Shown: one piece after another, positions 5,646-49,213 of the stretch
Numbering within the stretch: position 1 is the stretch's first letter
Layout: each line of letters starts with the position of its first letter
Translations under genes and position numbers: made by a program
Source: a virus
Direction: 5' to 3' (one strand)
DNA length: 49,213 bases
Virus record (IMG/VR): IMGVR_UViG_3300049846_001450
Coordinates: 1 to 49,213 of that record
Notes under the pieces: model-generated
Told to the model about the DNA's origin: nothing
The model's input: only the letters and a program-made list of their open reading frames with translations
Databases searched by the model: none

Positions 5646-5751
5646 CATTCCCGTCCTCCCGCCTCACCTTGCCCGCGTCATGCACCTGCGCCCGTCACGT
5701 CTTGCAAGCGTGGCGGGCAAAACTAACAGGTGGTGACCCGCAGGTGATATT

Positions 5752-5937
5752 ATGACAAACCAAAAGCGTTTCCGCGTATCGTTCAGGTTCGCATGGTACG
5801 ACATGTGGATCGGTGCGTTCTGGGATCAAAAGAAGCGCATCTTGTACGTGTGTCCGTTGCCGATGATGCTCGTCGTCATCGAGCGCGTCCGAGGTGTTAC
5901 CGCAGGCGGGGGCACTACTGGACCAAAAGCACCATGA
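5752..5937 (+). CDS. Small hypothetical protein, 61 aa
   Basis: ATG 5752 is preceded by CAGGTG (Shine-Dalgarno-like). It is rich in aromatic residues (FRFAWYDMWIGAFWD) with a short hydrophobic stretch (LPMMLVVIE), and may be membrane-associated. The stop overlaps the next ATG. The gap 5646-5751 holds a TTGACA (5642-5647) with a CACCTT hexamer 17 nt on, a possible weak promoter. Confidence 0.55.
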   Translation: MTNQKRFRVSFRFAWYDMWIGAFWDQKKRILYVCPLPMMLVVIERVRGVTAGGGTTGPKAP

Positions 5938-6101: not shown

Positions 6102-7063
6102 TCGGCAAGGTCGCCCGATACATCGCCCACCGTGCGGCGCAAGCATGGCTCGCGACGCTCGACGCCATACGCGGCACGTCGCGCGAGATCTTCCGCGCGA
6201 TCCTCTCGATGGTCGACAACCGCACCGGCGAGTCTCATCCGCGCTACCCCATCACGCTCGAGCGCATCGCACAGACGATCGGGCGCTGCGTGCAGACCGT
6301 CTCCCGGCACCTTCCCTGCCTCGAGGCTGCTGGCGTGATGATCGTTCGCCGTGCCGAACCAAGGCGCCAAGACGATGGCACCTTGCGCCAACATCCGAAC
6401 GACTACCAGCTCGTGCTGCCCGACGAGTGTTGGCGCGAGATAACCCCTGTCGAGTCAACCGCGATCGCTCGAGCGCCCGCGCCTCGATCCGAGTCTGTCC
6501 CGGAACCTACTCCCGTCGCACCCGAGTCTCGCTGGTCGCGATCAGTTCGCGGTCGTTTGTCAGAACAGAACGCCGCGCCGAAGGTACCGATCGCGCGCTG
6601 GAAACTCGACGCATCCGAGGATCAAACGTTCGACGGGATACGCTTTGACGATCTCGCACCGAAACTGCTCGACGTCGCGATGATCGCTTCCGAGGGCGCA
6701 GGCGATGACGTTCGTCACCGCGTCGTAGTCTGTCTCAACGAACTTCGCACGCGCGCTCACGAGGTCGCACTGTTCGCGTGTAATCTTGTGCTCTTCTCAT
6801 GGGACGCATGTAACGCCGTGCGTGGTTGGGTGCGCAAGTGCTTGCTCGATCCAGATCGTCGCGTCGACTCTGCGGAGCATTCGATGAACATCTTGCGCAA
6901 GTTTGTCCAGGGGCAGTACGACGAACTGTACGGGGGCAAAGGAATCGAGCGTCGACGTGCGCAGCGGGAAGAGGTGCAACACCAACACGATGAAGACCAA
7001 CGCGCTGTCGAGCTGCGACGCGCACGTGCCGAGTGGGAATCGATCGGGATTCGATTTGCATAG
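6098..7063 (+). CDS. Helix-turn-helix replication initiator-like protein, 321 aa
   Basis: ATG 6098 is preferred over an in-frame TTG at 6077 because of its ATGA overlap. Residues about 25-80 form a winged helix-turn-helix (ITLERIAQTIGRCVQTVSRHLPCLEAAGVM), the type found in lambda O-like and plasmid replication initiators. A proline-rich linker (about 115-150) leads to a C-terminal helical domain with basic residues. With the DnaC-like loader at 10460 it could direct host helicase to the phage origin. It could instead be a transcription regulator; the domain alone does not decide. Confidence 0.6.
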   Translation: MIGKVARYIAHRAAQAWLATLDAIRGTSREIFRAILSMVDNRTGESHPRYPITLERIAQTIGRCVQTVSRHLPCLEAAGVMIVRRAEPRRQDDGTLRQHPNDYQLVLPDECWREITPVESTAIARAPAPRSESVPEPTPVAPESRWSRSVRGRLSEQNAAPKVPIARWKLDASEDQTFDGIRFDDLAPKLLDVAMIASEGAGDDVRHRVVVCLNELRTRAHEVALFACNLVLFSWDACNAVRGWVRKCLLDPDRRVDSAEHSMNILRKFVQGQYDELYGGKGIERRRAQREEVQHQHDEDQRAVELRRARAEWESIGIRFA

Positions 7064-9043: not shown

Positions 9044-9238
9044 TTAGTCCTCGTGCGGAGGACTCACCACGATTTCGCCCCGCTCCTCGCGAACTTGCCA
9101 TGGCGGATCGCAGTTCTTTGCCTCTGCCCGGGCGAAGCGGAGCGCTTCCGCTCGCGAGCGAAAGCTGCGAATCTCGTATCCAACGATACGCACGTGGTGA
9201 CGACATCCAGTGATTTGTTCAGTCGTGACTTGGCTCAT
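9044..9238 (-). CDS. Small hypothetical protein, 64 aa
   Basis: ATG 9238 has a Shine-Dalgarno sequence (GAGAGGG) and directly follows the hairpin leader. The core is beta-alpha-beta-like (HHVRIVGYEIRSFRSRAEALRFARAEA), then an acidic C-terminus. The first 17 codons, with the whole leader, occur again in inverted orientation at the right end of the window (49163-49213). Function unknown. Confidence 0.65.
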   Translation of the reverse strand: MSQVTTEQITGCRHHVRIVGYEIRSFRSRAEALRFARAEAKNCDPPWQVREERGEIVVSPPHED

Positions 9239-9313
9239 GTTACCCTCTCTCAACGCCCCAACCCCGGGGCTCGTAGCCTACCGGGGTGAGCGTTGCTCGA
9301 TCGCCTAAAGCAG
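9188..9313. repeat. 126-bp exact inverted repeat, left copy
   Basis: Identical to the reverse complement of 49088-49213. It covers the last 9 nt of the coding part of the 9305-9472 gene, the hairpin leader and the first 17 codons of the 9044-9238 gene. The match stops at the window end on one side and at a mismatch (9314 versus 49087) on the other. Confidence 0.95.
9251..9295 (-). promoter_or_regulatory. Conserved hairpin leader, copy 1
   Basis: CCCCGG (9262-9267) and GGCT (9268-9271) pair with AGCC (9275-9278) and CCGGGG (9281-9286), with a 3-nt loop and a 2-nt TA bulge. A lower stem, CAACGC (9251-9256) with GCGTTG (9290-9295), extends it. It lies between the stop of the upstream gene and the Shine-Dalgarno sequence of the next, so it can act as an intercistronic RNA element. 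Copies occur at 9775-9799 and 49104-49148. Confidence 0.65.
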
Positions 9314-18131: not shown

Positions 18132-19057
18132 TTCCAATGGGAACCGGACGAACTCTGATTGGCGATAACGTCGTCGTTCCTGTTTTGGTCGATGCCGTTT
18201 CCGCCGCATTCCCAAATAACCCAAGCGTGTTTGTGCGCAGTGGGGCAATGATTCAAGACTTGTCGTTTCCACCCGCGTACAAGGGTGTAAAGCAAGTCGA
18301 GGTCCCGACGTTCGCGCGTATGCCCGAAGCTGTCGAGGTCGAAGACGGCCAGCCCGTCGAGCCGAACAAGTTGACGTCGAGCGGCGAATTCGCAGACGTG
18401 CGCGAATTCGCAATCGCATTCTCGTTGACCGATCGAGCGCGTTCGTCGCAGCTTGGGACGTACGAAGAAGGCGGACGCCAATGCATGATTTCGATCGCCG
18501 AAAAGGTCGACTCGCGCGCATTGACGCAGGTTCGCGCAGCGTCTTGGTTGTCCGATTATACGGTCGACGTGTTCAGTTCGACGACACCCGTCAATTTCAC
18601 GAGCGACACGTATATCGCCGCCCGCGCCAAACTCGGCGATGTTGGCTGGAATGAAGCGCCAGTTATGGTCGCGATTCACTCCGATGTCATGGCGACTATG
18701 ACGCGTGTTCGTAATGCGAGCGGCACGTACGATCTCGTCGAGGAAGGTCCGCCCGGCCCTGACGGAATGCCGATGTGGCTCAAATTGAAGCCGTGGGGGA
18801 CCGCGATCCTCGTATCGGACAAACTCAATAAAGAAGCATCTGGCGGCAAATACAAATACGAAAGCTTCGTCATTTGGCGCGATTCGATCGCGGTATGGCT
18901 TGAAGCTTCGCCGTCGTCGGAACAAGAGCGCATTGCCAAGGTCGCAGCCGATTCGATCTACATGCGGCAATTCGGCATTGTGCATCCCTACGCGCGGCGC
19001 CCTGGTCGCAAGACGCCCGGCATCGTCCGGTGCTACACGAACGCCGTCACCGTTTGA
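18128..19057 (+). CDS. Major capsid protein (HK97-fold, Mu T-like), 309 aa
   Basis: Main shell protein. GTG 18128 overlaps the upstream stop; ATG 18137 is the alternative. An N-arm is followed by a beta-rich E-loop-like segment and by a spine helix region (GRQCMISIAEKVDSRALTQVR). The P-domain strands near the end carry WRDSIAVWLEASP. Size and position directly after the protease fit Mu-like capsids of about 305 aa. Function follows mainly from gene order. Confidence 0.8.
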   Translation: MIPMGTGRTLIGDNVVVPVLVDAVSAAFPNNPSVFVRSGAMIQDLSFPPAYKGVKQVEVPTFARMPEAVEVEDGQPVEPNKLTSSGEFADVREFAIAFSLTDRARSSQLGTYEEGGRQCMISIAEKVDSRALTQVRAASWLSDYTVDVFSSTTPVNFTSDTYIAARAKLGDVGWNEAPVMVAIHSDVMATMTRVRNASGTYDLVEEGPPGPDGMPMWLKLKPWGTAILVSDKLNKEASGGKYKYESFVIWRDSIAVWLEASPSSEQERIAKVAADSIYMRQFGIVHPYARRPGRKTPGIVRCYTNAVTV

Positions 19058-28487: not shown

Positions 28488-29159
28488 ATGGCACTTGCGC
28501 GCGTTGGGTCATTCGACGTTATCTATGCTCGAATCGAAATGCCGCTGATTGGCGCATGGGGCGCGATCATCGAACTCGATATCGGCGACGGGTCTGCGCC
28601 CACCGGATCAACTTCAATCGACTTCGACACGTCACCATCCGTGTCGTTTGTCGGCTCCATTCTTCCAAGTCTCGGCGAAGGTTCGCCCGTTTCCGGTCGC
28701 GCTCGCATCCTCGTGCGTGCAGGTGTCAATGCTTTGCTCGGCGAAGTCGTAGGCAAACCATACGAGAATATCGCGCCGCGATTGGTTGTTGAGGATATCA
28801 TTGCCGATGCGGGCGAAGAAATTGAAGCGCTATCCAGTGTCGACAGCCTGCCAACGCAACGTCTTTGGGTGCGCCCAAAAGGAAAGGGCACGCAAGCATT
28901 GTCTCGTTTCTTGGAAAGTTCAGGGTTAACGTGGCGCTTTCGTTCGTCGGGGCGCATCGAGATCCTTGCCGACACGTGGCCCACGTATTCTGGCGATGCC
29001 ACCTTAACCGCAGCGGCGAACGAATTGAACCGAGCAGAGTATGCGCTCGATACGCCGGATCTGTTTCCCGGCATGTCGCTCGACTCAAAAAACTGCAAAC
29101 GCGTCGTGCATTGTATTCGACGCGATGGTACGTTCCGAACCGAGGTGACGTTTCAATGA
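28488..29159 (+). CDS. Baseplate hub protein (Mu gp44/P-like), 223 aa
   Basis: ATG 28488. It shows the features of the hub family: a beta-barrel start, then a segment GTQALSRFLESSGLTWRF and a late strand (IEILADTWPTYSGD). The beta domains pair with a short helix that reads 'FLESSGLTWRF', which is characteristic of gp44-like hubs. Position agrees. Confidence 0.6.
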   Translation: MALARVGSFDVIYARIEMPLIGAWGAIIELDIGDGSAPTGSTSIDFDTSPSVSFVGSILPSLGEGSPVSGRARILVRAGVNALLGEVVGKPYENIAPRLVVEDIIADAGEEIEALSSVDSLPTQRLWVRPKGKGTQALSRFLESSGLTWRFRSSGRIEILADTWPTYSGDATLTAAANELNRAEYALDTPDLFPGMSLDSKNCKRVVHCIRRDGTFRTEVTFQ

Positions 29160-30180: not shown

Positions 30181-31302
30181 ATGTCGTCAACCTACGAGCA
30201 GCTCGCAACCATTCGCACGCAAAGCGCGATTGCTACTGATATTTACAATCGAGCAGCGGCCCGCGGCGCGAACGTAAAGGGTTTGACCGACGCCGACTTG
30301 CGGCGAATCTTGATCGAGGTCATTGCAGACGTGCGCGAGTCCGAAGAAACGGCGCGCCTCGACATTCTCAATTCTGGATTCGTTGACCTTGCCGAAGGCG
30401 CGATGCTCGATCTTTTGGGCGTCGGGTTTTTCGACGAAGAGCGTTTGCCCGCGACCGCTGCGACGGTTCAGCTTCGAATGTACGATACGGTCGGCCAAGG
30501 CCCGTACGACGTGCCAGCGCGAACCATCGCCGTCGTCGGCGCTGATACCGAATCGCCGCTTTATTACCGACTCGCGACCGCTATCACGGTTCCGCAATCT
30601 GGCGAAAAGCTCGAATGCTTTTTTGAGGCCATCGCTGTAGGGGCTGCGTACAACATTCTATCCGGTACTCCGGTCAAACTTGCAACACCAATCCCAGGCG
30701 TAGGCATTATCGCAACGTTTGTCACGGCATTGTCCGGCGTCGTCGTCAAGGCTGGCACCGATGCCGAATCCGACGCGAGCTACCGCCAGCGATTACGCGA
30801 TAAATGGGCAACACTTTCCGCGGGCTGGACGGCCGCCGCAATTCGTTACCATATTCGCAAGATACTGCCGAATGCTACGCGTATCTTCGTTCGCGACGAT
30901 GCGCCCGCATCGGGCCAGGCGTGGGCGTACTGCGCAGGACCAACTGCGCCGATCTCGACGGCAGACGCAGTCGCCGCAATGGCGTATCTAAACGATTCGG
31001 AGCGCAAGCCCGTATCAAATAGGCCCGTGCTGGTCATTCCGTCGATCCCCGTCGTCGTACCGCTCGCCATTACGCTTTACACCGACGGCTCAGATGATGC
31101 GCTGTCTCTTGCCGCTGCTCGCCTTGCCGCGTCGACCGTCGATTACATCGAGCGAATCTATCCGATTTCGAGGGCAAACGATGCGCTTTACGACGTCGAC
31201 AACGGCGTCTTGAATGTTGCCATTTCTCCAAGCGATGATGTTCAGCTTGCGCCCGAAGAAGTGATTTCATTGCAGCCGACCTATACCGTGGAGCTTTTCT
31301 GA
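30181..31302 (+). CDS. Baseplate J-like protein (Mu gp47), 373 aa
   Basis: Baseplate wedge component. ATG 30181. It has the J family layout: ESEETARLDILNSGFVDLAEG near the start, repeated beta-rich central domains with a GPYDVPARTI strand, and a hallmark segment ATPIPGVGIIATFVTALSGVVVKAGTDAESDASYRQRL split here by a loop. A C-terminal DAALYDVDNGVLNVAISP-type strand region follows. Highly convincing family match by pattern. Confidence 0.85.
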   Translation: MSSTYEQLATIRTQSAIATDIYNRAAARGANVKGLTDADLRRILIEVIADVRESEETARLDILNSGFVDLAEGAMLDLLGVGFFDEERLPATAATVQLRMYDTVGQGPYDVPARTIAVVGADTESPLYYRLATAITVPQSGEKLECFFEAIAVGAAYNILSGTPVKLATPIPGVGIIATFVTALSGVVVKAGTDAESDASYRQRLRDKWATLSAGWTAAAIRYHIRKILPNATRIFVRDDAPASGQAWAYCAGPTAPISTADAVAAMAYLNDSERKPVSNRPVLVIPSIPVVVPLAITLYTDGSDDALSLAAARLAASTVDYIERIYPISRANDALYDVDNGVLNVAISPSDDVQLAPEEVISLQPTYTVELF

Positions 31303-32594
31303 TGGCTTACCACGTAATCAACGCAGACGCTCGCGCGACGGGTTTGCCCGACGCATTCTTTCATTGTGTCGCCACATCTCCGCCTTATTTTGGATTGCGT
31401 GAATATGGCGACGACGATCGAGAAATAGGCGACGAGAAAACCCCTGCCGAATACGTGACCGAAATTGTTAAGGTCGGTCGCGAGGTTCGTCGCGTAATGC
31501 GTGACGATGGCGTTTGGTGGCTGAACCTGGGGGACTCGTTCGGGCCTGGCAAATCCCTCCTCATGATCCCCCAACGCGTTGCCCTCGCATTGCAGGACGA
31601 CGGCTGGATTGTCCGCGCGCATATCCCATGGTTCAAGGCTTCATGCATGCCCGAAAGCGTACGGGACAGACCGACCGTTGCGCACGAATACGTGTTTCAG
31701 TTGGTCAAACAGCCGCGGTATTTTTGGGATCCGGATGCGGTGCGCGTGGGGAGCGATGTTCATGTCCGCAAGGGGGTGCCGCATAAGCTTACCCAAATGG
31801 AAGGGTATAAGGGTTTGGCTGGCGGTACGCTAAAGCGTGACCCAAACGAACCATACGGGTTCGCGCGCGATATTGTTACGGTTGGCCGCAACATTCGCAC
31901 GTCCGATTTCTTCAATGCTGGCCTCGACGAATACGAAGCGCACATCGCGCACGTTCGCGAGAATGGCGGGATGATGCTTTCACCCGAGGGCGATCCGCTC
32001 GCGTTCCTCGTCAACCCCGTTGGCTCGAAGCTCGCGCATTTTGCAATGTGGCCGCCGAAGCTCGTAAAGCCGATGATTCTGTCGAGCACGTCTGAGAAAG
32101 GATGCTGTCCACAATGCGGTGCGCAATTGGCAAGGGTTGTGGAGAAAACGGGCGAGGTCGTGTCGTCATACGCCGGTGGCCATATCATGAAGGGGTCGAT
32201 GGCGCGCAGTCGTAATCGAACACGTGCAGACTTGTCAGTGCGTGAGCCCGATGGTTGGGGTCATTTGCCAAAGAACGTGCTTCGCGACAGAGGTTTCTCC
32301 CCGTCCTGCGAATGCAACGCAGGCGATCCGGTCCCCTGCCGAGTGCTCGATCCGTTCGCTGGCAGTGGCACAACCATGCAGGTGTGCGAAGCGCTCGGCC
32401 GCGATTCGTGGGGCGTGGAGTTGATGGCGAAGAACCTGCCAATCATTGCCGAGCGGATGAAAGAAACGCTCGATCCGCAGACAATGAAACCTACAAAGAA
32501 ATACCTTGTGAAAGGCCGAGAAACGAAGCATAAAAGCTTGACCGATCTGCACGCGGAATACATGGCGAAACTTCTACCAATGGCGGCAGAATAA
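31302..32594 (+). CDS. DNA methyltransferase (N4/N6 class, phage type), 430 aa
   Basis: ATG overlaps the baseplate J stop. The catalytic motif TSPPYFGLREYG is near residue 25, and the AdoMet motif DPFAGSGTTMQV near residue 350, an order (IV before I) typical of beta-class methylases. Residues between include VWWLNLGDSFG and a Cys pair insertion (CCPQCGAQL near 265 and CEC near 330) usual in phage methylases. SPPY suggests N4-cytosine or N6-adenine as the target base; the site is unknown. It is inserted into the baseplate operon, with no recognisable partner nuclease, so self-protection from host restriction is the simplest role. Confidence 0.9.
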   Translation: MAYHVINADARATGLPDAFFHCVATSPPYFGLREYGDDDREIGDEKTPAEYVTEIVKVGREVRRVMRDDGVWWLNLGDSFGPGKSLLMIPQRVALALQDDGWIVRAHIPWFKASCMPESVRDRPTVAHEYVFQLVKQPRYFWDPDAVRVGSDVHVRKGVPHKLTQMEGYKGLAGGTLKRDPNEPYGFARDIVTVGRNIRTSDFFNAGLDEYEAHIAHVRENGGMMLSPEGDPLAFLVNPVGSKLAHFAMWPPKLVKPMILSSTSEKGCCPQCGAQLARVVEKTGEVVSSYAGGHIMKGSMARSRNRTRADLSVREPDGWGHLPKNVLRDRGFSPSCECNAGDPVPCRVLDPFAGSGTTMQVCEALGRDSWGVELMAKNLPIIAERMKETLDPQTMKPTKKYLVKGRETKHKSLTDLHAEYMAKLLPMAAE

Positions 32595-33376
32595 TGGGAC
32601 CTCTCGAGGCACTTGCCGAGTCCGATATCGACGCGCGTGTCATGGTCGGACAGCCACAAGGCTACCTTGGCGCATTCGGCTCCGAAGCCGACAGCGAACT
32701 CGCGCTACGCCGCGAAACCGTACGCGCTCGCTTCCCGCCGTCGCAGCATTATCGCAACCATGCGCGCAACATCGGCAGCTTGCCCGCGTCGCAAGACTCG
32801 CCTGATGGCCAATCGACGCGACTGCGCCTCATTGGCCAAACGCGTGCCATAGATCGCTACCCCGGCGAAACCGATGCGCAGTATTGCGAGCGACTTTCCA
32901 AGGCGTTCTCATCGCATATCAAACGCGGCACACCCAATGCGATCATTGAACAGCTAAAAGCGTTCGGGTTTGTCGACGTCGTAGTCTTCGAGGAATACAA
33001 CGGAGGGTTTTACGCGGAGCCTACGGATGATTACGGCTGGCGTTTCGTCGTCGTCATCGGTCCAAACTTCGGATCCGTCGGATGGCTTGGTGCGCTCGTC
33101 GGTACCGCTGTCGTCGGTGTCGATACTGTAGGGCTAGGCAATGGTACTGCGTTGCAACTCGCCGCAATTAAGCGCTTGATCATTCAGTGGAAACAAGCAT
33201 TCGCGATTCCGCTGCGTTTTGTTCTCGTTTTTGGTGACGCGCCAATCGTCGGGCTTGCCATTGTTGGCGGCGCCGTGGTAGGCGGTGGACAGACAACCGA
33301 GGTGCAAATGGTTGACCCTCGCGTGGTTGGTTCTGCAATCGTTGGCGAAGCGCCGCTCTTGGGCTTCAATCTGTAG
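32594..33376 (+). CDS. Tail protein I-like baseplate component (Mu gp48/DUF2313 position), 260 aa
   Basis: ATG 32594 shares its start with the methylase stop. It has the usual linker PGETDAQYCERLSKAFSSH-like region near 90 and a compact beta segment (GLAIVGGAVVGGGQTTEV). Tail protein I-type proteins link wedges to the fibre. The family call rests on position and on a helical core (SNAIIEQLKAFGFVDVVVF-like). Confidence 0.6.
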   Translation: MGPLEALAESDIDARVMVGQPQGYLGAFGSEADSELALRRETVRARFPPSQHYRNHARNIGSLPASQDSPDGQSTRLRLIGQTRAIDRYPGETDAQYCERLSKAFSSHIKRGTPNAIIEQLKAFGFVDVVVFEEYNGGFYAEPTDDYGWRFVVVIGPNFGSVGWLGALVGTAVVGVDTVGLGNGTALQLAAIKRLIIQWKQAFAIPLRFVLVFGDAPIVGLAIVGGAVVGGGQTTEVQMVDPRVVGSAIVGEAPLLGFNL

Positions 33377-33385
33377 AGGTTTTAC

Positions 33386-34414
33386 ATGGCAACCGATCGA
33401 TCTCCCATTGCGTACATTTGGCCGACGCTCAAAGCGTTTGCGACCGGCGACGTAATTACGCGTGAATTGCTGCGCGATTCGATCAATAAGGCTGGTGACA
33501 TTGGCTACGGCGTTCTCGCCGCATTGAACGAGCGTTTCCAACAGCTCGGTTCGACGAACGCAGGAACGAGCGCCGTACAACGCGGTAGCGTCGTCATGGG
33601 CGGGCTGTCGTTTTATGATCCCGTTGACGTTCCCGTGGGCGCACTCGATGGCTTGACGCTCATCCTCGAAACCGATCTCGCTGGCCCTGTGACGATTACC
33701 TTCGTGCAGCCCACGAGCCCAGTGCACGTCGCGACCCAAATCAACACACAAGGCGCATCGCTCGGGATCGTTGCTTCGTGTGATACAGGTGTCGATCCGA
33801 ATACGGGCGCAATCGTCGCCGCAAACGTCGGCAAACTTCTTTTGGTTCGTCCGAGCGGCGGCACGGCATCGCTTACGGTCAAAGGTTCAGGCACGGCAAA
33901 CGCGATTCTCGGATTGCCATTGATCGACACCACGACAACGGGCGCGGGAACGGCCAACGACGGTGCGTCTCGCGTAGGAGTGGCCGATCTTGCGGCCATA
34001 TCTGGCGGCACGCTGCGCGCCGTCCTTTTGGCGTTGGAATCCGCTATCCTCGGGATCGATAATTCTACATCGATTGCGTTCGGCGGAACGCTGCTACAGA
34101 TGAGCTACTCGATTCCTGGCTCATTGCTCACGTCAAAGCGCACCGTACTACGCGTGCCGAACCTTTTGGCAAGCTATGTGTATACGTTGCCGGCCCCTCC
34201 GGGTGAAGGCTACTCCGTGATCTTGTTGCTAAATCCAAACCCGCCGCAAACGCTGGAGTTGCGACGTCCGGACACGTCAACGATCGCAATCATGTCGGGC
34301 GAGTTTGGGACGCCTTCGCCTGGTCAGCAATATATCGAAATTGCAGGCTTTGGCGGCGTATGGTATGCGATTGGATGGGGAATCAACGACGACAGCTATG
34401 CGCTGCCGAGCTAG
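33386..34414 (+). CDS. Tail fibre protein, 342 aa
   Basis: ATG 33386, after a GAGG Shine-Dalgarno sequence. N-terminal helical piece (VITRELLRDSINKAG), then a beta-rich domain at about 85-195 (DGLTLILETDL... ILGLPLIDTT) related in pattern to the insert in the sheath protein. The C-terminal 100 residues are Gly/Pro-rich strands. Fibre assignment from position after the baseplate genes and from composition. It converges with the minus lipoprotein gene (34411). Confidence 0.75.
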   Translation: MATDRSPIAYIWPTLKAFATGDVITRELLRDSINKAGDIGYGVLAALNERFQQLGSTNAGTSAVQRGSVVMGGLSFYDPVDVPVGALDGLTLILETDLAGPVTITFVQPTSPVHVATQINTQGASLGIVASCDTGVDPNTGAIVAANVGKLLLVRPSGGTASLTVKGSGTANAILGLPLIDTTTTGAGTANDGASRVGVADLAAISGGTLRAVLLALESAILGIDNSTSIAFGGTLLQMSYSIPGSLLTSKRTVLRVPNLLASYVYTLPAPPGEGYSVILLLNPNPPQTLELRRPDTSTIAIMSGEFGTPSPGQQYIEIAGFGGVWYAIGWGINDDSYALPS

Positions 34415-34902
34415 TTGCACTCGCCACACGCATTGCATTGGCCCGTGCGAAACTCTGGCGACCCCTTAGCGATCGATCTGACACACGGCGAACCTGCCGG
34501 TTTTGGTTGCACAGAACGCCCCGGCTTATCGTAATTGCACCATTCGATGATGCATGCGCCATCGAATCGTTTTACCACATACGGATCGTATCCGTAACAT
34601 CCGGTTGACGACTCAGCGCACACGGTGTCCTGTAAACCGTCGCGTTCCACGATGCATAGACCATATCCGCATTGACCCGTGCGATCATCGTCCCCGACGC
34701 ACTGAGCACCGTTTGGCATTGGGTCATGGGTACACCCATGTTCCGGATCGTATATGTCGAGCGTACACGGATCGAAATCCACGCAGGACGTTTCCGGATC
34801 CGCGGTATCTGGCCCGCTGTTGCTCACGCAGTCGATCTGCTCATTGTCACAAGACACAAGCGCGAACGACAGCAAAAGCATTATTGTGTGCGCAATCTTC
34901 AC
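34411..34902 (-). CDS. Cys-rich lipoprotein, 163 aa
   Basis: GTG 34902 overlaps the stop of the upstream gene (GTGA), giving a signal peptide of about 18 residues with lipobox LVSC. The mature protein has more than 15 Cys and repeats of Asp/Pro/Gly spacing such as CVDFDPCTLDIYDPEHGC. This style recurs in secreted Cys-rich proteins of Myxococcota, from which it may have come. Expected to be lipid-anchored in a bacterial envelope. Likely a surface-altering or exclusion function, not visible in the sequence. Confidence 0.75.
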   Translation of the reverse strand: MKIAHTIMLLLSFALVSCDNEQIDCVSNSGPDTADPETSCVDFDPCTLDIYDPEHGCTHDPMPNGAQCVGDDDRTGQCGYGLCIVERDGLQDTVCAESSTGCYGYDPYVVKRFDGACIIEWCNYDKPGRSVQPKPAGSPCVRSIAKGSPEFRTGQCNACGECN

Positions 34903-35174
34903 GGCTTTACCTCTAGCGTACTCGTGCATTGACCATCGAGACAAACGCCGTAGACGTCGCATTGTGCGCATTGCATGCCGTCCGGCGCATTGTCGTATGC
35001 GCATATTCCGTCAATGCACAGTGGAACGATACAGACGCCCGGATCGCCGCAATCTGAATTTGATTCGCACGGCGCTCCACTAATCTGCGGATCAGGTTGC
35101 CAGCCGCCGCAATTATCGCTCGTGTCGCAACCAGCGATCGCGATCGCCAAAACCATTACGTACTTCAGTAGCAT
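34899..35174 (-). CDS. Cys-rich lipoprotein, 91 aa
   Basis: ATG 35174 has an excellent Shine-Dalgarno sequence (GGGAGG). A hydrophobic N-terminus (VMVLAIAIAGC) carries the lipobox, followed by about 12 Cys in pairs (CESNSDCGDPGVC, CIDGICAYD). Same style as its downstream partner, to which it is translationally coupled. Upstream, TTGCGT-16-TATTGT (about 35205-35232) is a candidate promoter. Presumed envelope-anchored. Confidence 0.75.
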   Translation of the reverse strand: MLLKYVMVLAIAIAGCDTSDNCGGWQPDPQISGAPCESNSDCGDPGVCIVPLCIDGICAYDNAPDGMQCAQCDVYGVCLDGQCTSTLEVKP

Positions 35175-35311
35175 TACGTAGCCTCCCGTCGGTAATAGTC
35201 ACGCAACAATAAGCAGTTCGTATGTAGACGCAATCAGGAAACGCCTTACGTTGTTCTTTTGTCCATTGAAAAATACTGGCGCGCCATGCATATCGTGATA
35301 CCGTCACGGGC

Positions 35312-35545
35312 ATGAAAGCAATTCGTTTTGCGTGGCTGATTGGGTGCGTGTGCTTCGTGGGCTGCGCGGATGCTGGCGGGCTTATCGTGGTCGAGCGCGA
35401 AGACGTGGACGCCGGTGCAGAGTGCGACGCGGCCGCGGAGCCAAACACGACAGACCAAGACGCGGAGGCGCAGCTGGCATGCGCAGACGCGCAAGAGATC
35501 GATGCGTCGATGGCGTGTGTGGAGAAGAATGGGAGCTGTCTGTAG
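35312..35545 (+). CDS. Small lipoprotein, 77 aa
   Basis: ATG 35312. Signal-like N-terminus (KAIRFAWLIGCVCFVGC) with a lipobox FVGC, then an acidic, Cys-containing tail (VDAGAECDAAAEPNTTDQD). TTGAAA-17-CATATC lies just upstream (about 35268-35296). It faces away from the two Cys-rich lipoproteins, forming a divergent group. Confidence 0.6.
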   Translation: MKAIRFAWLIGCVCFVGCADAGGLIVVEREDVDAGAECDAAAEPNTTDQDAEAQLACADAQEIDASMACVEKNGSCL

Positions 35546-35752
35546 CTACTTGCCAGGCGGCTTCAAAGGAAGCGCGGACGTAGCGCGGCGGATGTCTTTG
35601 AGGGTGAGCGATCCGTAAAAGATCTCGGATGCTTTGCGCTTTGCCCTCGGCGTGTACAGTTCGGGCTTGTACTCGTTGCTGCGCGGGATACTAGGATCGG
35701 GTTTGCGCCCGCCAGTATGTTGTTTCACGGGGGCGTCGAGAGGAATGCCTCG
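35546..35752 (-). CDS. Probable C-terminal part of the 35725-35934 gene, reached by a shift at A8
   Basis: After an A8 run (35753-35760 on plus, eight T) the frame switches to one that encodes about 65 convincing residues (KRGIPLDAPVKQHTGGRKPD, then PSIPRSNEYKPELYTPRAKR, to the stop at 35546). The other frame ends four codons after the run. The continuous protein would be about 127 aa. Either programmed slippage, a sequencing indel or a real split could explain it. Confidence 0.45.
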   Translation of the reverse strand, partial: RGIPLDAPVKQHTGGRKPDPSIPRSNEYKPELYTPRAKRKASEIFYGSLTLKDIRRATSALPLKPPGK

Positions 35753-35934
35753 TTTTTTTTGCGGGCGCGTTTGCGTTGCGCGGTGCGAAGTCTTTCGGCG
35801 CATGCGGCGCATGCTTCGCTTGTGTATCCGGGCTCTGCTGTTCGTGGTTTGCCGCAGCGTGCGCATGCTCCGGCAGCAAGCATTTTGTCGCGTCGCTCTT
35901 TGGCCCGCGCGCGTCTGTCAGGGTTGGTTTTCAT
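35725..35934 (-). CDS. Small zinc-finger protein, 69 aa (possibly frameshifted)
   Basis: ATG 35934 overlaps the upstream stop (ATGA). Two Cys pairs (CARC near 23 and CAAC near 43) with a basic N-terminus form a likely zinc ribbon. The chain turns basic (RTAQRKRARKKNEA) at the A8 run and stops shortly after. See the entry at 35546 for the alternative continuation. Confidence 0.6.
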   Translation of the reverse strand: MKTNPDRRARAKERRDKMLAAGACARCGKPRTAEPGYTSEACAACAERLRTAQRKRARKKNEAFLSTPP

Positions 35935-36518
35935 GTAGCAGCCTGCGATTCGTTTGACTGTGGAAGGTTCATGTAGACGTTTTGCAAAGCTTCGAGAAGG
36001 TTCGTCGGGGCTACAATGCGATCCCCGTCCCAGCGTACGAGCAGCGTCTTGGGGCCAATGGTCGCGGCGTATTTTTTGCGCCAGAGTCGAGCGTCCGCCT
36101 TGTTTGATTTGACCTGGACAAACATTGTTCCGAACGCGGTTTCAACGACGATATCTACGCCTTGTGTGTCCTCTTCTTTCGTGGCCATACGCGCACCAAC
36201 AAGTGCAGGATTCGACGCGCGTAGCGCAAGTATCGCGTCGAGCGTTCGCCGCTCGTTTCGCTTGCCTGTGGCGTTTCCGATGTCGTTCGGAAGCGTGACG
36301 ATTTCGAGCAACGTTTTCTTGGGGATGCGCGACAAACACGCTCGGGTGTCGTCAACATGCATTGACTTCGCGCCGCAGCTTGGTTGTCGACAAACCCATC
36401 CGCCGCGCTTCGATGGGTGCCAATTGTGCAACGGTGCGTTGTTTTTGAGCAACGCAAATGCTTTGCGTTCAAGTCTTGCGCGCCTCACGCCTCGCCTCGA
36501 ATCGGGTGTTTCCGGCAT
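35931..36518 (-). CDS. Restriction-endonuclease-fold protein (predicted nuclease), 195 aa
   Basis: ATG 36518. The N-terminal third has a zinc-ribbon-like arrangement (WVCRQPSCGAKSMHVDDTRAC). Residues about 85-165 look like a PD-(D/E)xK core: acidic EEDTQGVDIVVE, then the catalytic strand FVQVKSNKADAR with the D...QVK pattern and a final LLVRWDGDRIV. I infer a DNA nuclease or recombinase partner from this pattern. No partner methylase is next to it. Confidence 0.55.
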   Translation of the reverse strand: MPETPDSRRGVRRARLERKAFALLKNNAPLHNWHPSKRGGWVCRQPSCGAKSMHVDDTRACLSRIPKKTLLEIVTLPNDIGNATGKRNERRTLDAILALRASNPALVGARMATKEEDTQGVDIVVETAFGTMFVQVKSNKADARLWRKKYAATIGPKTLLVRWDGDRIVAPTNLLEALQNVYMNLPQSNESQAAT

Positions 36519-36637
36519 CCAAAAAATCGAACGTAGAACGCGGAAAGGATGGTGTCGATCATCGAATCATGATCGGATTGCAGTCGGGCAACGTCGAGCG
36601 ACGAGGCCCAAATCACGGACATGTCGAAGTGCTTCAT
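36485..36637 (-). CDS. Small hypothetical protein, 50 aa
   Basis: ATG 36637 overlaps the upstream stop (ATGA), and its end overlaps the next gene by 34 nt. Helical start (SVIWASSLDVARLQ), Cys near the end. Unrecognised. Confidence 0.45.
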   Translation of the reverse strand: MKHFDMSVIWASSLDVARLQSDHDSMIDTILSAFYVRFFGCRKHPIRGEA

Positions 36638-37059
36638 GATACACCTTGCATGTTCTGATTTGCCTGAATCGACAGCTGTTTAATAACGTCTGTCTCGGCC
36701 AAGTTTGGCTCGTGCCACTCACGATCAGCGGCTTCGATCGCTGGCAACGCTTCGTCGTCGAACGCGGCGCCGTACTCGCTTCGAGCGCGATCAAGAATCT
36801 CTTGGCGGCGCTGTCGTCGTGCGTGTGATGGAAGTTTGTCCGCAACGTCAAGTTCGTCGCGGACGTGAAGCAACAGATTCGCGCGTTGCCGATCGTCGAG
36901 TAGTGCGTTGCGCGTCATCGAGGCAAGATGTTCGGCTTCTTTGACGCGCTCGGCGTGAAAGTGATCACGCAGTAGGCGCCCTTGTTCGTGGCACATAATT
37001 CCACGCTTCGAGCCACACTTCGGACATTGAGCAGTTTTAGGGTCGACACGTCTCGACAT
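36634..37059 (-). CDS. Zinc-binding hypothetical protein, 141 aa
   Basis: ATG 37059 with Shine-Dalgarno GGAGG. The N-terminus has a CPKCGSKRG-IMC zinc-like site and a following HxH/H pattern. The remainder is a long charged helix (RQRRQEILDRARSEYGAAFD). It is the first gene of the 37059-35546 operon, driven by a family promoter. Zinc-ribbon plus helix suggests nucleic-acid binding. Confidence 0.6.
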   Translation of the reverse strand: MSRRVDPKTAQCPKCGSKRGIMCHEQGRLLRDHFHAERVKEAEHLASMTRNALLDDRQRANLLLHVRDELDVADKLPSHARRQRRQEILDRARSEYGAAFDDEALPAIEAADREWHEPNLAETDVIKQLSIQANQNMQGVS

Positions 37060-37078
37060 AAGCACCTCCGAAAGTACA

Positions 37079-37106
37079 AACATGCGTCGCGAGAAATACT
37101 TGTCAA
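37079..37106 (-). promoter_or_regulatory. Family promoter for the 37059 operon
   Basis: Reading on the minus strand: TTGACA (37106-37101), 16-nt spacer, CATGTT (37084-37079). Flanked by the conserved GACATGCG upstream. A Shine-Dalgarno leader of about 13 nt follows. Confidence 0.65.
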
Positions 37107-37123
37107 CGCATGTCGGAAGTGCA

Positions 37124-41495: not shown

Positions 41496-42014
41496 ATGCG
41501 CGACGTTCCAGCCATAGTTTTTCTTTCCCAAACAGCAAGCGAATCACTCGACAGTCTTGCGCGTGCGCCATGGTGGGCAGTGATGATCCTGGCGTTGCTT
41601 GGTGGCACGGCTGGGATCGCAAAAGCATGGTCCGTCTTGTCCGAGTACCTAAAGGACAAACGAGACCTCGCGCGACGACTTGCGGACGAAGACAAGCTGC
41701 GGCGCGATGCGAAAGCGAAGGCCGAAGTAGATCAGCTTGAAGCGCTCACATCGATGGCGCGCGACGTTCCAAAGCGACTTGATCAATTCGCGAGCGAACT
41801 GTCCGCGTCGAATCGAATTCTCGCGCAGCAGGTGGAAGCGAATACGCGCGCCCTCGTCGACATGCGTAGCGAGATCGCTAGCGACACACGCGCACTCGTG
41901 ATGGCAATTGCTGGAAAGCTTGGCGTTCAAACAAGTGCCGACGAGACAAACCCTAGCGGTGGTCGTCGTCAGTCGATTCCAGAGCAGCGCGCATCGCATC
42001 CGTCGCTGCTCTAA
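41496..42014 (+). CDS. Membrane-anchored coiled-coil protein, 172 aa
   Basis: ATG 41496. One clear transmembrane helix near residues 30-48 (WWAVMILALLGGTAGIAKAW) and a long coiled coil afterwards (KRDLARRLADEDKLRRDAKA, to about 120). Inner-membrane spanins and some holins have this layout. No catalytic site. Together with its neighbours it is the best candidate for a lysis cassette, but no endolysin was recognised anywhere in the window. Confidence 0.55.
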   Translation: MRDVPAIVFLSQTASESLDSLARAPWWAVMILALLGGTAGIAKAWSVLSEYLKDKRDLARRLADEDKLRRDAKAKAEVDQLEALTSMARDVPKRLDQFASELSASNRILAQQVEANTRALVDMRSEIASDTRALVMAIAGKLGVQTSADETNPSGGRRQSIPEQRASHPSLL

Positions 42015-42177
42015 GACGGCGCATGCGGTCGACGCGTTCGGCGTCGCTCTCGCGCTCTCGCGTTGCGCGTGCATGTTCTGCTGCTTGTCGTGCGCGCCGT
42101 TCCACAATAGCCCACGCCGCAAACAACGCAGCAAGTGTCCAACCAAGTGCCGCAAACTTTAGCGGCGCATTGCCCAC
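41953..42177 (-). CDS. Small membrane protein with coiled coil, 74 aa
   Basis: Last gene of the minus group 42862-41953, whose end overlaps the 41496 gene. A hydrophobic N-terminal helix (LGWTLAALFAAWAIV) is followed by a charged helix (RRARQAAEHARATRERESD). Matches an inner-membrane spanin-type layout. Function inferred only. Confidence 0.55.
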   Translation of the reverse strand: MGNAPLKFAALGWTLAALFAAWAIVERRARQAAEHARATRERESDAERVDRMRRLRAATDAMRAALESTDDDHR

Positions 42178-49083: not shown

Positions 49084-49103
49084 CAGGCTGCTTTAGGCGA
49101 TCG

Positions 49104-49148
49104 AGCAACGCTCACCCCGGTAGGCTACGAGCCCCGGGGTTGGGGCGT
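49104..49148 (+). promoter_or_regulatory. Conserved hairpin leader, copy 3
   Basis: CCCCGG (49115-49120), TA, GGCT, loop, AGCC, CCGGGG (49134-49139) on the plus strand, with the outer CAACGC/GCGTTG stem. Part of the inverted repeat. Confidence 0.6.
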
Positions 49149-49162
49149 TGAGAGAGGGTAAC

Positions 49163-49213
49163 ATGAGCCAAGTCACGACTGAACAAATCACTGGATGTCG
49201 TCACCACGTGCGT
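49163..49213 (+). CDS. 5' end of a second copy of the 9044-9238 gene (partial)
   Basis: ATG 49163 after GAGAGGG. Its first 17 codons are identical to those of the 9238 gene; the window ends within it. It is either a duplicate gene or the same gene seen from another genome arrangement. Confidence 0.6.
   Translation, partial: MSQVTTEQITGCRHHVR

Follow-up and report, generated by a model that had tools for sequence, protein, structure and literature searches.

Two coupled genes for predicted Cys-rich lipoproteins, convergent with the tail-fibre-position gene of a distant relative of Myxococcus phage Mx4, as candidates for altering the infected cell's surface

Results

Gene content of the fibre locus

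The window, by which we mean the whole stretch of DNA analysed here, is a complete IMG/VR virus record of 49,213 bp, in which genes for a Mu-type portal, a capsid protein, a tape-measure protein, baseplate J and a gpI-like protein were all found in the usual order. The genes and features around the fibre locus, together with a more distant spanin match, are as follows.

30181..31302, plus strand: baseplate J protein (family match; 34% identity to the counterpart in Myxococcus phage Mx4)
31302-32594: DNA methyltransferase gene, between baseplate J and the gpI-like gene, within the tail operon
32594..33376, plus strand: gpI-like tail protein (PF09684 sub-threshold; Mx4 gene at the gpI position, E 6e-6)
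33386..34414, plus strand: tail-fibre-position gene (directly after the gpI-like gene; same gene order in Mx4)
34411..34902, minus strand: P1, predicted Cys-rich lipoprotein, 163 aa (GTG start, Shine-Dalgarno, PS00013, module similarity)
34849..34902, minus strand: predicted signal peptide and lipobox of P1 (LVS-C, Asp at +2; from the translation and PS00013)
34639..34791, minus strand: CTDC-like module of P1, residues 38-88 (PF00526 sub-threshold, alignment, AlphaFold2)
34899..35174, minus strand: P2, predicted Cys-rich lipoprotein, 91 aa (Shine-Dalgarno, PS00013, Myxococcota similarity)
35312..35545, plus strand: P3, small acidic secreted-looking ORF, 77 aa (codon score)
35546..37089, minus strand: accessory genes (zinc-finger, PD-(D/E)XK-like and small ORFs), upstream of P2-P1
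41953-42177, minus strand: Rz-like spanin, weak match (E 0.0016)

A previous sequence-only reading had placed three lipoprotein genes next to the tail fibre, and its ORF coordinates are correct for all three. The neighbourhood to the fibre stands by position, directly after the gpI-like gene, but no family match was found for the fibre-position gene, whose fibre nature is taken from where it lies. P1 and the fibre-position gene are convergent, with 3' ends overlapping by 4 nt. Within the accessory cluster, the minus-strand ORF at 35931-36518 carries a GVDIVVET...FVQVKSN stretch that by eye resembles the core of a PD-(D/E)XK nuclease, and this ORF has no family match.

In addition to baseplate J, the portal, the tape measure, the gene at 28488 and gpI also match Mx4 with the order kept. 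Judged by these sequence similarities, the phage is related to Myxococcus phage Mx4, if only distantly, and its host is presumably a member of the Myxococcota. A search of IMG/VR with peptide patterns from P1, P2, the fibre, the sheath, baseplate J and the protease, which detects close matches only, confirmed no close relatives. TerL gave no match in approximately 240 Myxococcota genomes, so that close prophage relatives were not seen, an empty result that says little since the search had no positive control. Nor was an integrase recognised among the larger ORFs scanned in the window, which makes it doubtful that the genes, whose position had been called moron-like, are morons in the strict prophage sense. 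The final 126 bases of the record (49088-49213) are an exact inverted copy of the internal stretch 9188-9313, either because the assembly folded back where the contig ends or as a genuine terminal feature.

P1 and P2 are coupled genes of predicted lipoproteins

The GTG start of P1 at 34902 falls in the stop region of P2 (GTGA, a 4-nt overlap) and both genes have a Shine-Dalgarno sequence, AGAGG for P1 and GGGAGG for P2, in agreement with the translational coupling proposed before. The lipobox pattern of PROSITE (PS00013) is passed by P1 at Cys18 and by P2 at Cys16, and besides the lipid Cys the two proteins contain 15 and 10 cysteines, respectively. A lipobox alone is weak evidence, since five occur in the window compared to a mean of 1.9 in 100 order-2 shuffles, three of which reached five. 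When signal peptide, lipobox and Shine-Dalgarno were all required, the window yielded P1, P2 and one dubious ORF, and 15 Markov shuffles yielded one match in total. Codon statistics did not separate P1 and P2 from shadow frames, the synonymous-codon coding test being uninformative for the genome of this phage. From their gene features we regard P1 and P2 as real genes, the products of which are predicted to be exported and lipidated.

In E. coli, an Asp at +2 leads to retention of a lipoprotein in the inner membrane. The rule for Myxococcus xanthus is that lipoproteins with neither Lys at +2 nor Ala at +7 belong to the outer membrane (PMC5562445); residues +2 to +7 are DNEQID in P1 and DTSDNC in P2, free of both signals, and for a host that follows this rule an outer-membrane location of both proteins can be inferred.

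For P3, the lipobox claimed for all three proteins did not hold up as it did for P1 and P2. P3 fails PS00013 because of a Cys at -4 relative to its Cys18, no clear Shine-Dalgarno site was seen at its start, and its similarity to the Cys modules of Myxococcota was indistinguishable from that of shuffles, leaving P3 unsupported as a lipoprotein. The codon score of P3 exceeds that of every shadow ORF, a coding-like codon use.

Similarity of P1 and P2 to Cys-rich modules in secreted proteins of Myxococcota

P1 aligned to the whole length of the Dictyostelium CTDC repeat of Pfam (PF00526) with 18.1 bits and E 0.0024, below the gathering cut-off of 27 bits. At E<=0.001, P1 matched 25 and P2 matched 10 of 237 Myxococcota genomes, nearly always within long Cys-rich proteins; among the matches of P2 is a small lipoprotein, L093. 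Since Cys-rich sequences can match through composition alone, the search was compared to 150 full shuffles and another 150 in which every Cys was fixed. No shuffle of either kind reached the real score of P1 or P2, although the margin of P2 was slim (49.3 bits compared to 48.9 for the best shuffle). The mature parts of P1 and P2 hence resemble, at the level of sequence, the Cys-rich modules of secreted Myxococcota proteins beyond what Cys composition gives, and the Myxococcota style noticed earlier is borne out. Host proteins with such modules include L093, which is a stand-alone small lipoprotein, and L040, which bears a lipobox. Where the usual module has its middle Cys, P1 has a different residue (PCTLDIYDPEHGC), and so do the host proteins L078 and L082.

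AlphaFold2, when given an alignment of Myxococcota modules, modelled residues 37-88 of P1 with confidence as two paired disulfide-rich beta-hairpins (pLDDT of about 88-95 for residues 41-80 and of 74 for residues 81-90); the model was poor beyond these residues, with the C-terminal half unresolved. The single-sequence model of P2 was poor and unusable. Fold comparison gave nothing usable: the best E with Foldseek was 2.2, and the best Z with VIA was 4.0, to tick evasins (54 residues, 6.6 A), a match too weak to rely on.

Other searches gave little for these proteins: tblastn against phages with P1 and P2 returned matches at chance level, no PHROG matched either protein, the NCBIfam search returned an unrelated signal-peptide match alone at E<=1, the peptide pattern of P1 had no match in the genome collection, and neither defence models nor PDB sequences gave anything credible. 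A hand-written, consensus-like CTDC string, used solely to fetch real loci, recovered hundreds of loci from the genome collection, by title mostly Myxococcota or deltaproteobacterial, and one locus (L112) among 2.9 million viral contigs, which is a lower bound since peptide patterns detect close matches only. By this sequence survey CTDC-type modules are rare in viruses. L112 is a short viral contig on which genes for terminase and portal are joined by a final ORF with CTDC-type Cys repeats (5717-5902), and by this gene content it is another phage with a CTDC-type module.

A convergent lipoprotein gene follows the fibre-position gene of Mx4

In Mx4, the gpI-like gene and the fibre-position gene p67 are followed by a convergent minus-strand lipoprotein ORF of 134 aa (18561-18965 in OK085710.1, our L124). 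The record OK085710 misses this ORF and annotates two small plus-strand ORFs between p67 and the holin-like p70, whereas a second GenBank record of Mx4 has it as CDS WNM70406.1. The minus-strand ORF has a Shine-Dalgarno sequence (AAGGGGG), a lipobox that passes PS00013 and a GC content by codon position of 0.72/0.51/0.81, similar to its neighbours, and on these sequence features it fits better than the annotated plus-strand ORFs. Like P1 and P2, WNM70406.1 is encoded convergently and directly after the fibre-position gene and has Asp at +2 of its lipobox. Unlike them, it is the product of a single gene, has only two further Cys residues and has Ala at +7, and its sequence is unrelated to that of P1. 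A search for homologues of WNM70406.1 in approximately 210 Myxococcota genomes gave one local match inside a long ORF, which we did not accept as a relative.

The window phage and Mx4, two distant relatives, thus share a gpI-like gene, a fibre-position gene and a convergent gene for a different lipoprotein, a parallel that is new here and, with two cases, suggestive rather than proof. A scan of 28 further baseplate loci from Myxococcota, which are no census and some of which are short or possibly tailocins, showed no other clear case. Tail-region lipoproteins in these loci lie mostly on the late strand, close to holin-like genes, and in L129 and L165 a lipoprotein gene directly follows a holin-like gene. 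L129, a Myxococcota phage-like locus, also has a Cys-containing lipoprotein ORF (6504-6845) between endolysin-like and fibre-like genes.

A 16-nt repeat heads the accessory cluster upstream of P2

The promoters of their own that had been attributed to the three genes were not recovered, as no sigma-70-like site was found near P1-P3 and the region as a whole did not yield such sites beyond chance. A 16-nt sequence close to ACATGCGTTGACAAGT, which contains a -35-like TTGACA, occurs in 12 copies against 0.56 expected, a number reached by none of 100 shuffles.

3329, 10419, 12529 (minus), 12594, 37098 (minus), 40141 (minus), 40854: copies of the 16-nt repeat
40953 (minus), 42905, 46908, 47527, 48385 (minus): further copies of the 16-nt repeat

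Several copies sit shortly upstream of gene starts, for instance that of the gene before SSB, and the repeat is probably an early promoter or operator of the phage, as far as its sequence and placement tell. No copy lies at P1, P2 or P3. The copy at 37098-37113 heads the minus-strand accessory cluster, upstream of P2 on the same strand, and transcription of P2-P1 from this copy would be a guess.

Discussion

Lipoproteins encoded beside receptor-binding tail genes are known from coliphages. In T5, the gene of Llp adjoins that of pb5 on its downstream side, and Llp jams FhuA from the periplasm (PMC9586334); Rtp45 binds LptD and precludes attachment of the receptor-binding protein (PMC12685063), and in other small coliphages exclusion factors are commonly encoded at the fibre loci (PMC11990801). 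P1 and P2 have in common with Llp, Cor and Rtp45 a lipoprotein signal peptide with a lipobox (PS00013) and a gene beside the presumed receptor-binding gene. As in T5 (PMC9586334), a phage lipoprotein gene lies directly downstream of what would be the receptor-binding tail gene; Llp differs in its modelled chain of approximately 61 residues, its lack of Cys-rich modules and its origin in an E. coli siphovirus. Rtp45 and Cor are likewise small disulfide-containing outer-membrane lipoproteins of a fibre locus (PMC12685063; PMC11990801), but they are of about 6 kDa with one disulfide, compared to 15 and 10 Cys residues in host-type modules in P1 and P2, and P1 is larger and far richer in Cys than Llp or Rtp45. 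No similarity of P1 or P2 to a known exclusion protein or phage family was found in the PHROG and phage tblastn searches. By position and predicted lipidation P1 and P2 are of the Llp/Cor type, but they share no sequence with any member, and we do not assign them to these families; an Llp-like function would be theirs by analogy.

The modules of P1 and P2, in turn, are of host type. CTDC-type secreted proteins and lipoproteins of Myxococcota contain the same DPCTxD..D..xGCxHxP module (L040, L093) and resemble PF00526 and the TraA repeats (TIGR04201); most of these host proteins comprise many modules over hundreds to thousands of residues, whereas P1 shows roughly one clear module and a degenerate one. 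The SitA toxins of Mx-alpha elements are, like P1 and P2, phage-linked myxobacterial lipoproteins without Lys at +2 or Ala at +7 (PMC5562445). SitA proteins have a long conserved N-terminal region, used as a query of 441-507 aa (PMC5562445), as well as a toxin domain and an immunity gene, which P1 and P2 (163 and 91 aa) lack; we therefore rejected P1 and P2 as SitA polymorphic toxins for being too short and without a toxin domain match.

The layout in Mx4, together with the exclusion lipoproteins encoded beside the fibre genes of T5 and Rtp, makes exclusion or surface alteration our leading idea. According to it, P2-P1 would be a bicistronic unit for two secreted lipoproteins that were taken from, or imitate, Cys-rich surface proteins of myxobacteria and that, once exported and lipidated, would reside in the infected cell's outer membrane. 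There, the disulfide-rich modules may attach to or cover the surface structure that the adjacent tail fibre uses, and progeny phages would be spared loss to already infected cells or debris. We tentatively favour this picture of an outer-membrane pair with host-type modules that alters the surface of the infected cell and most likely blocks re-adsorption, at somewhat less than even chances; binding to or blocking of a receptor would follow the coliphage analogy. It is favoured by the lipobox and Shine-Dalgarno sequence on each of two coupled genes, by their convergent position right after the fibre-position gene and by modules that match secreted Myxococcota proteins, one host lipoprotein (L040) having the same modules. 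Against it stand the absence of similarity to known exclusion proteins, the unrelated lipoprotein of Mx4, and a convergent layout seen, among the loci examined, in the window and Mx4 only; the Ala at +7 of the Mx4 lipoprotein, hinting at the inner membrane by the M. xanthus rule, speaks against the outer-membrane part, as does the Asp at +2 of P1 and P2 under the E. coli rule. As for timing, P1 and P2 oppose the strand of the tail genes, with the 16-nt motif absent at P2 and present at 37098 upstream.

The modules of P1 and P2 are those of abundant secreted Myxococcota proteins and are repeats of extracellular-matrix type, PF00526 resembling the Cys repeats of TraA (PMC3325183), and the two genes sit in a minus-strand accessory cluster. 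All this would also suit moron-like envelope genes taken from the host, which would change adhesion, cell-cell contact or predation independently of the phage receptor. We consider such an envelope function with host-derived modules nearly as likely as receptor blocking. Against it, Mx4 has an unrelated lipoprotein at the same place beside its fibre-position gene, favouring a fibre-linked role, and a phage in which no integrase was recognised would have little time to gain from host traits.

Genes of o-spanins are normally embedded in or beside the i-spanin gene. A role in lysis, with at least one of P1-P3 as the outer-membrane spanin partner of the Rz-like protein (41953-42177), could account for the lack of an o-spanin candidate beside this weakly matched gene, and in L129 and L165 a lipoprotein does directly follow a holin-like gene; P1 and P2 are, however, not adjacent to the Rz-like gene but about 7 kb away, larger than expected for this role, Cys-rich and opposite to the late tail strand, and we find a spanin role improbable. 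Outer-membrane vesicles can serve as phage decoys, and since the modules of P1 and P2 mimic the host and their genes adjoin structural genes, the proteins might be carried on particles or vesicles, for instance as decoy receptors for competing phages. This is very unlikely given a strand opposite to the structural operon and an N-terminal lipidation that is unusual among virion proteins. That P1 and P2 are unexpressed ORFs, open by chance, would agree with codon statistics that fail to separate them from shadow frames, and is still harder to believe in view of the coupled start, the Shine-Dalgarno sequences, the lipoboxes and the module similarity in both.

Fibre-linked exclusion lipoproteins have already been documented in the coliphages T5 and Rtp (PMC9586334; PMC12685063; PMC11990801), and if our reading is right, what is new is an exclusion lipoprotein assembled from surface modules of the host. 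The coliphage precedents have porin-type receptors, and the principle would, if true, extend to predatory, social bacteria. Given outer-membrane exchange in the host, it is conceivable, as a long shot, that P1 and P2 are passed to uninfected neighbours along with other outer-membrane lipoproteins, in which case exclusion or altered kin contact would spread through the swarm ahead of the phage. Since Mx4 grows in the laboratory and the window phage has no known host, the exclusion idea is testable now in Mx4. In conclusion, the locus of a fibre gene and an opposite-strand lipoprotein gene could, if exclusion is true, point to the receptor of Mx4.
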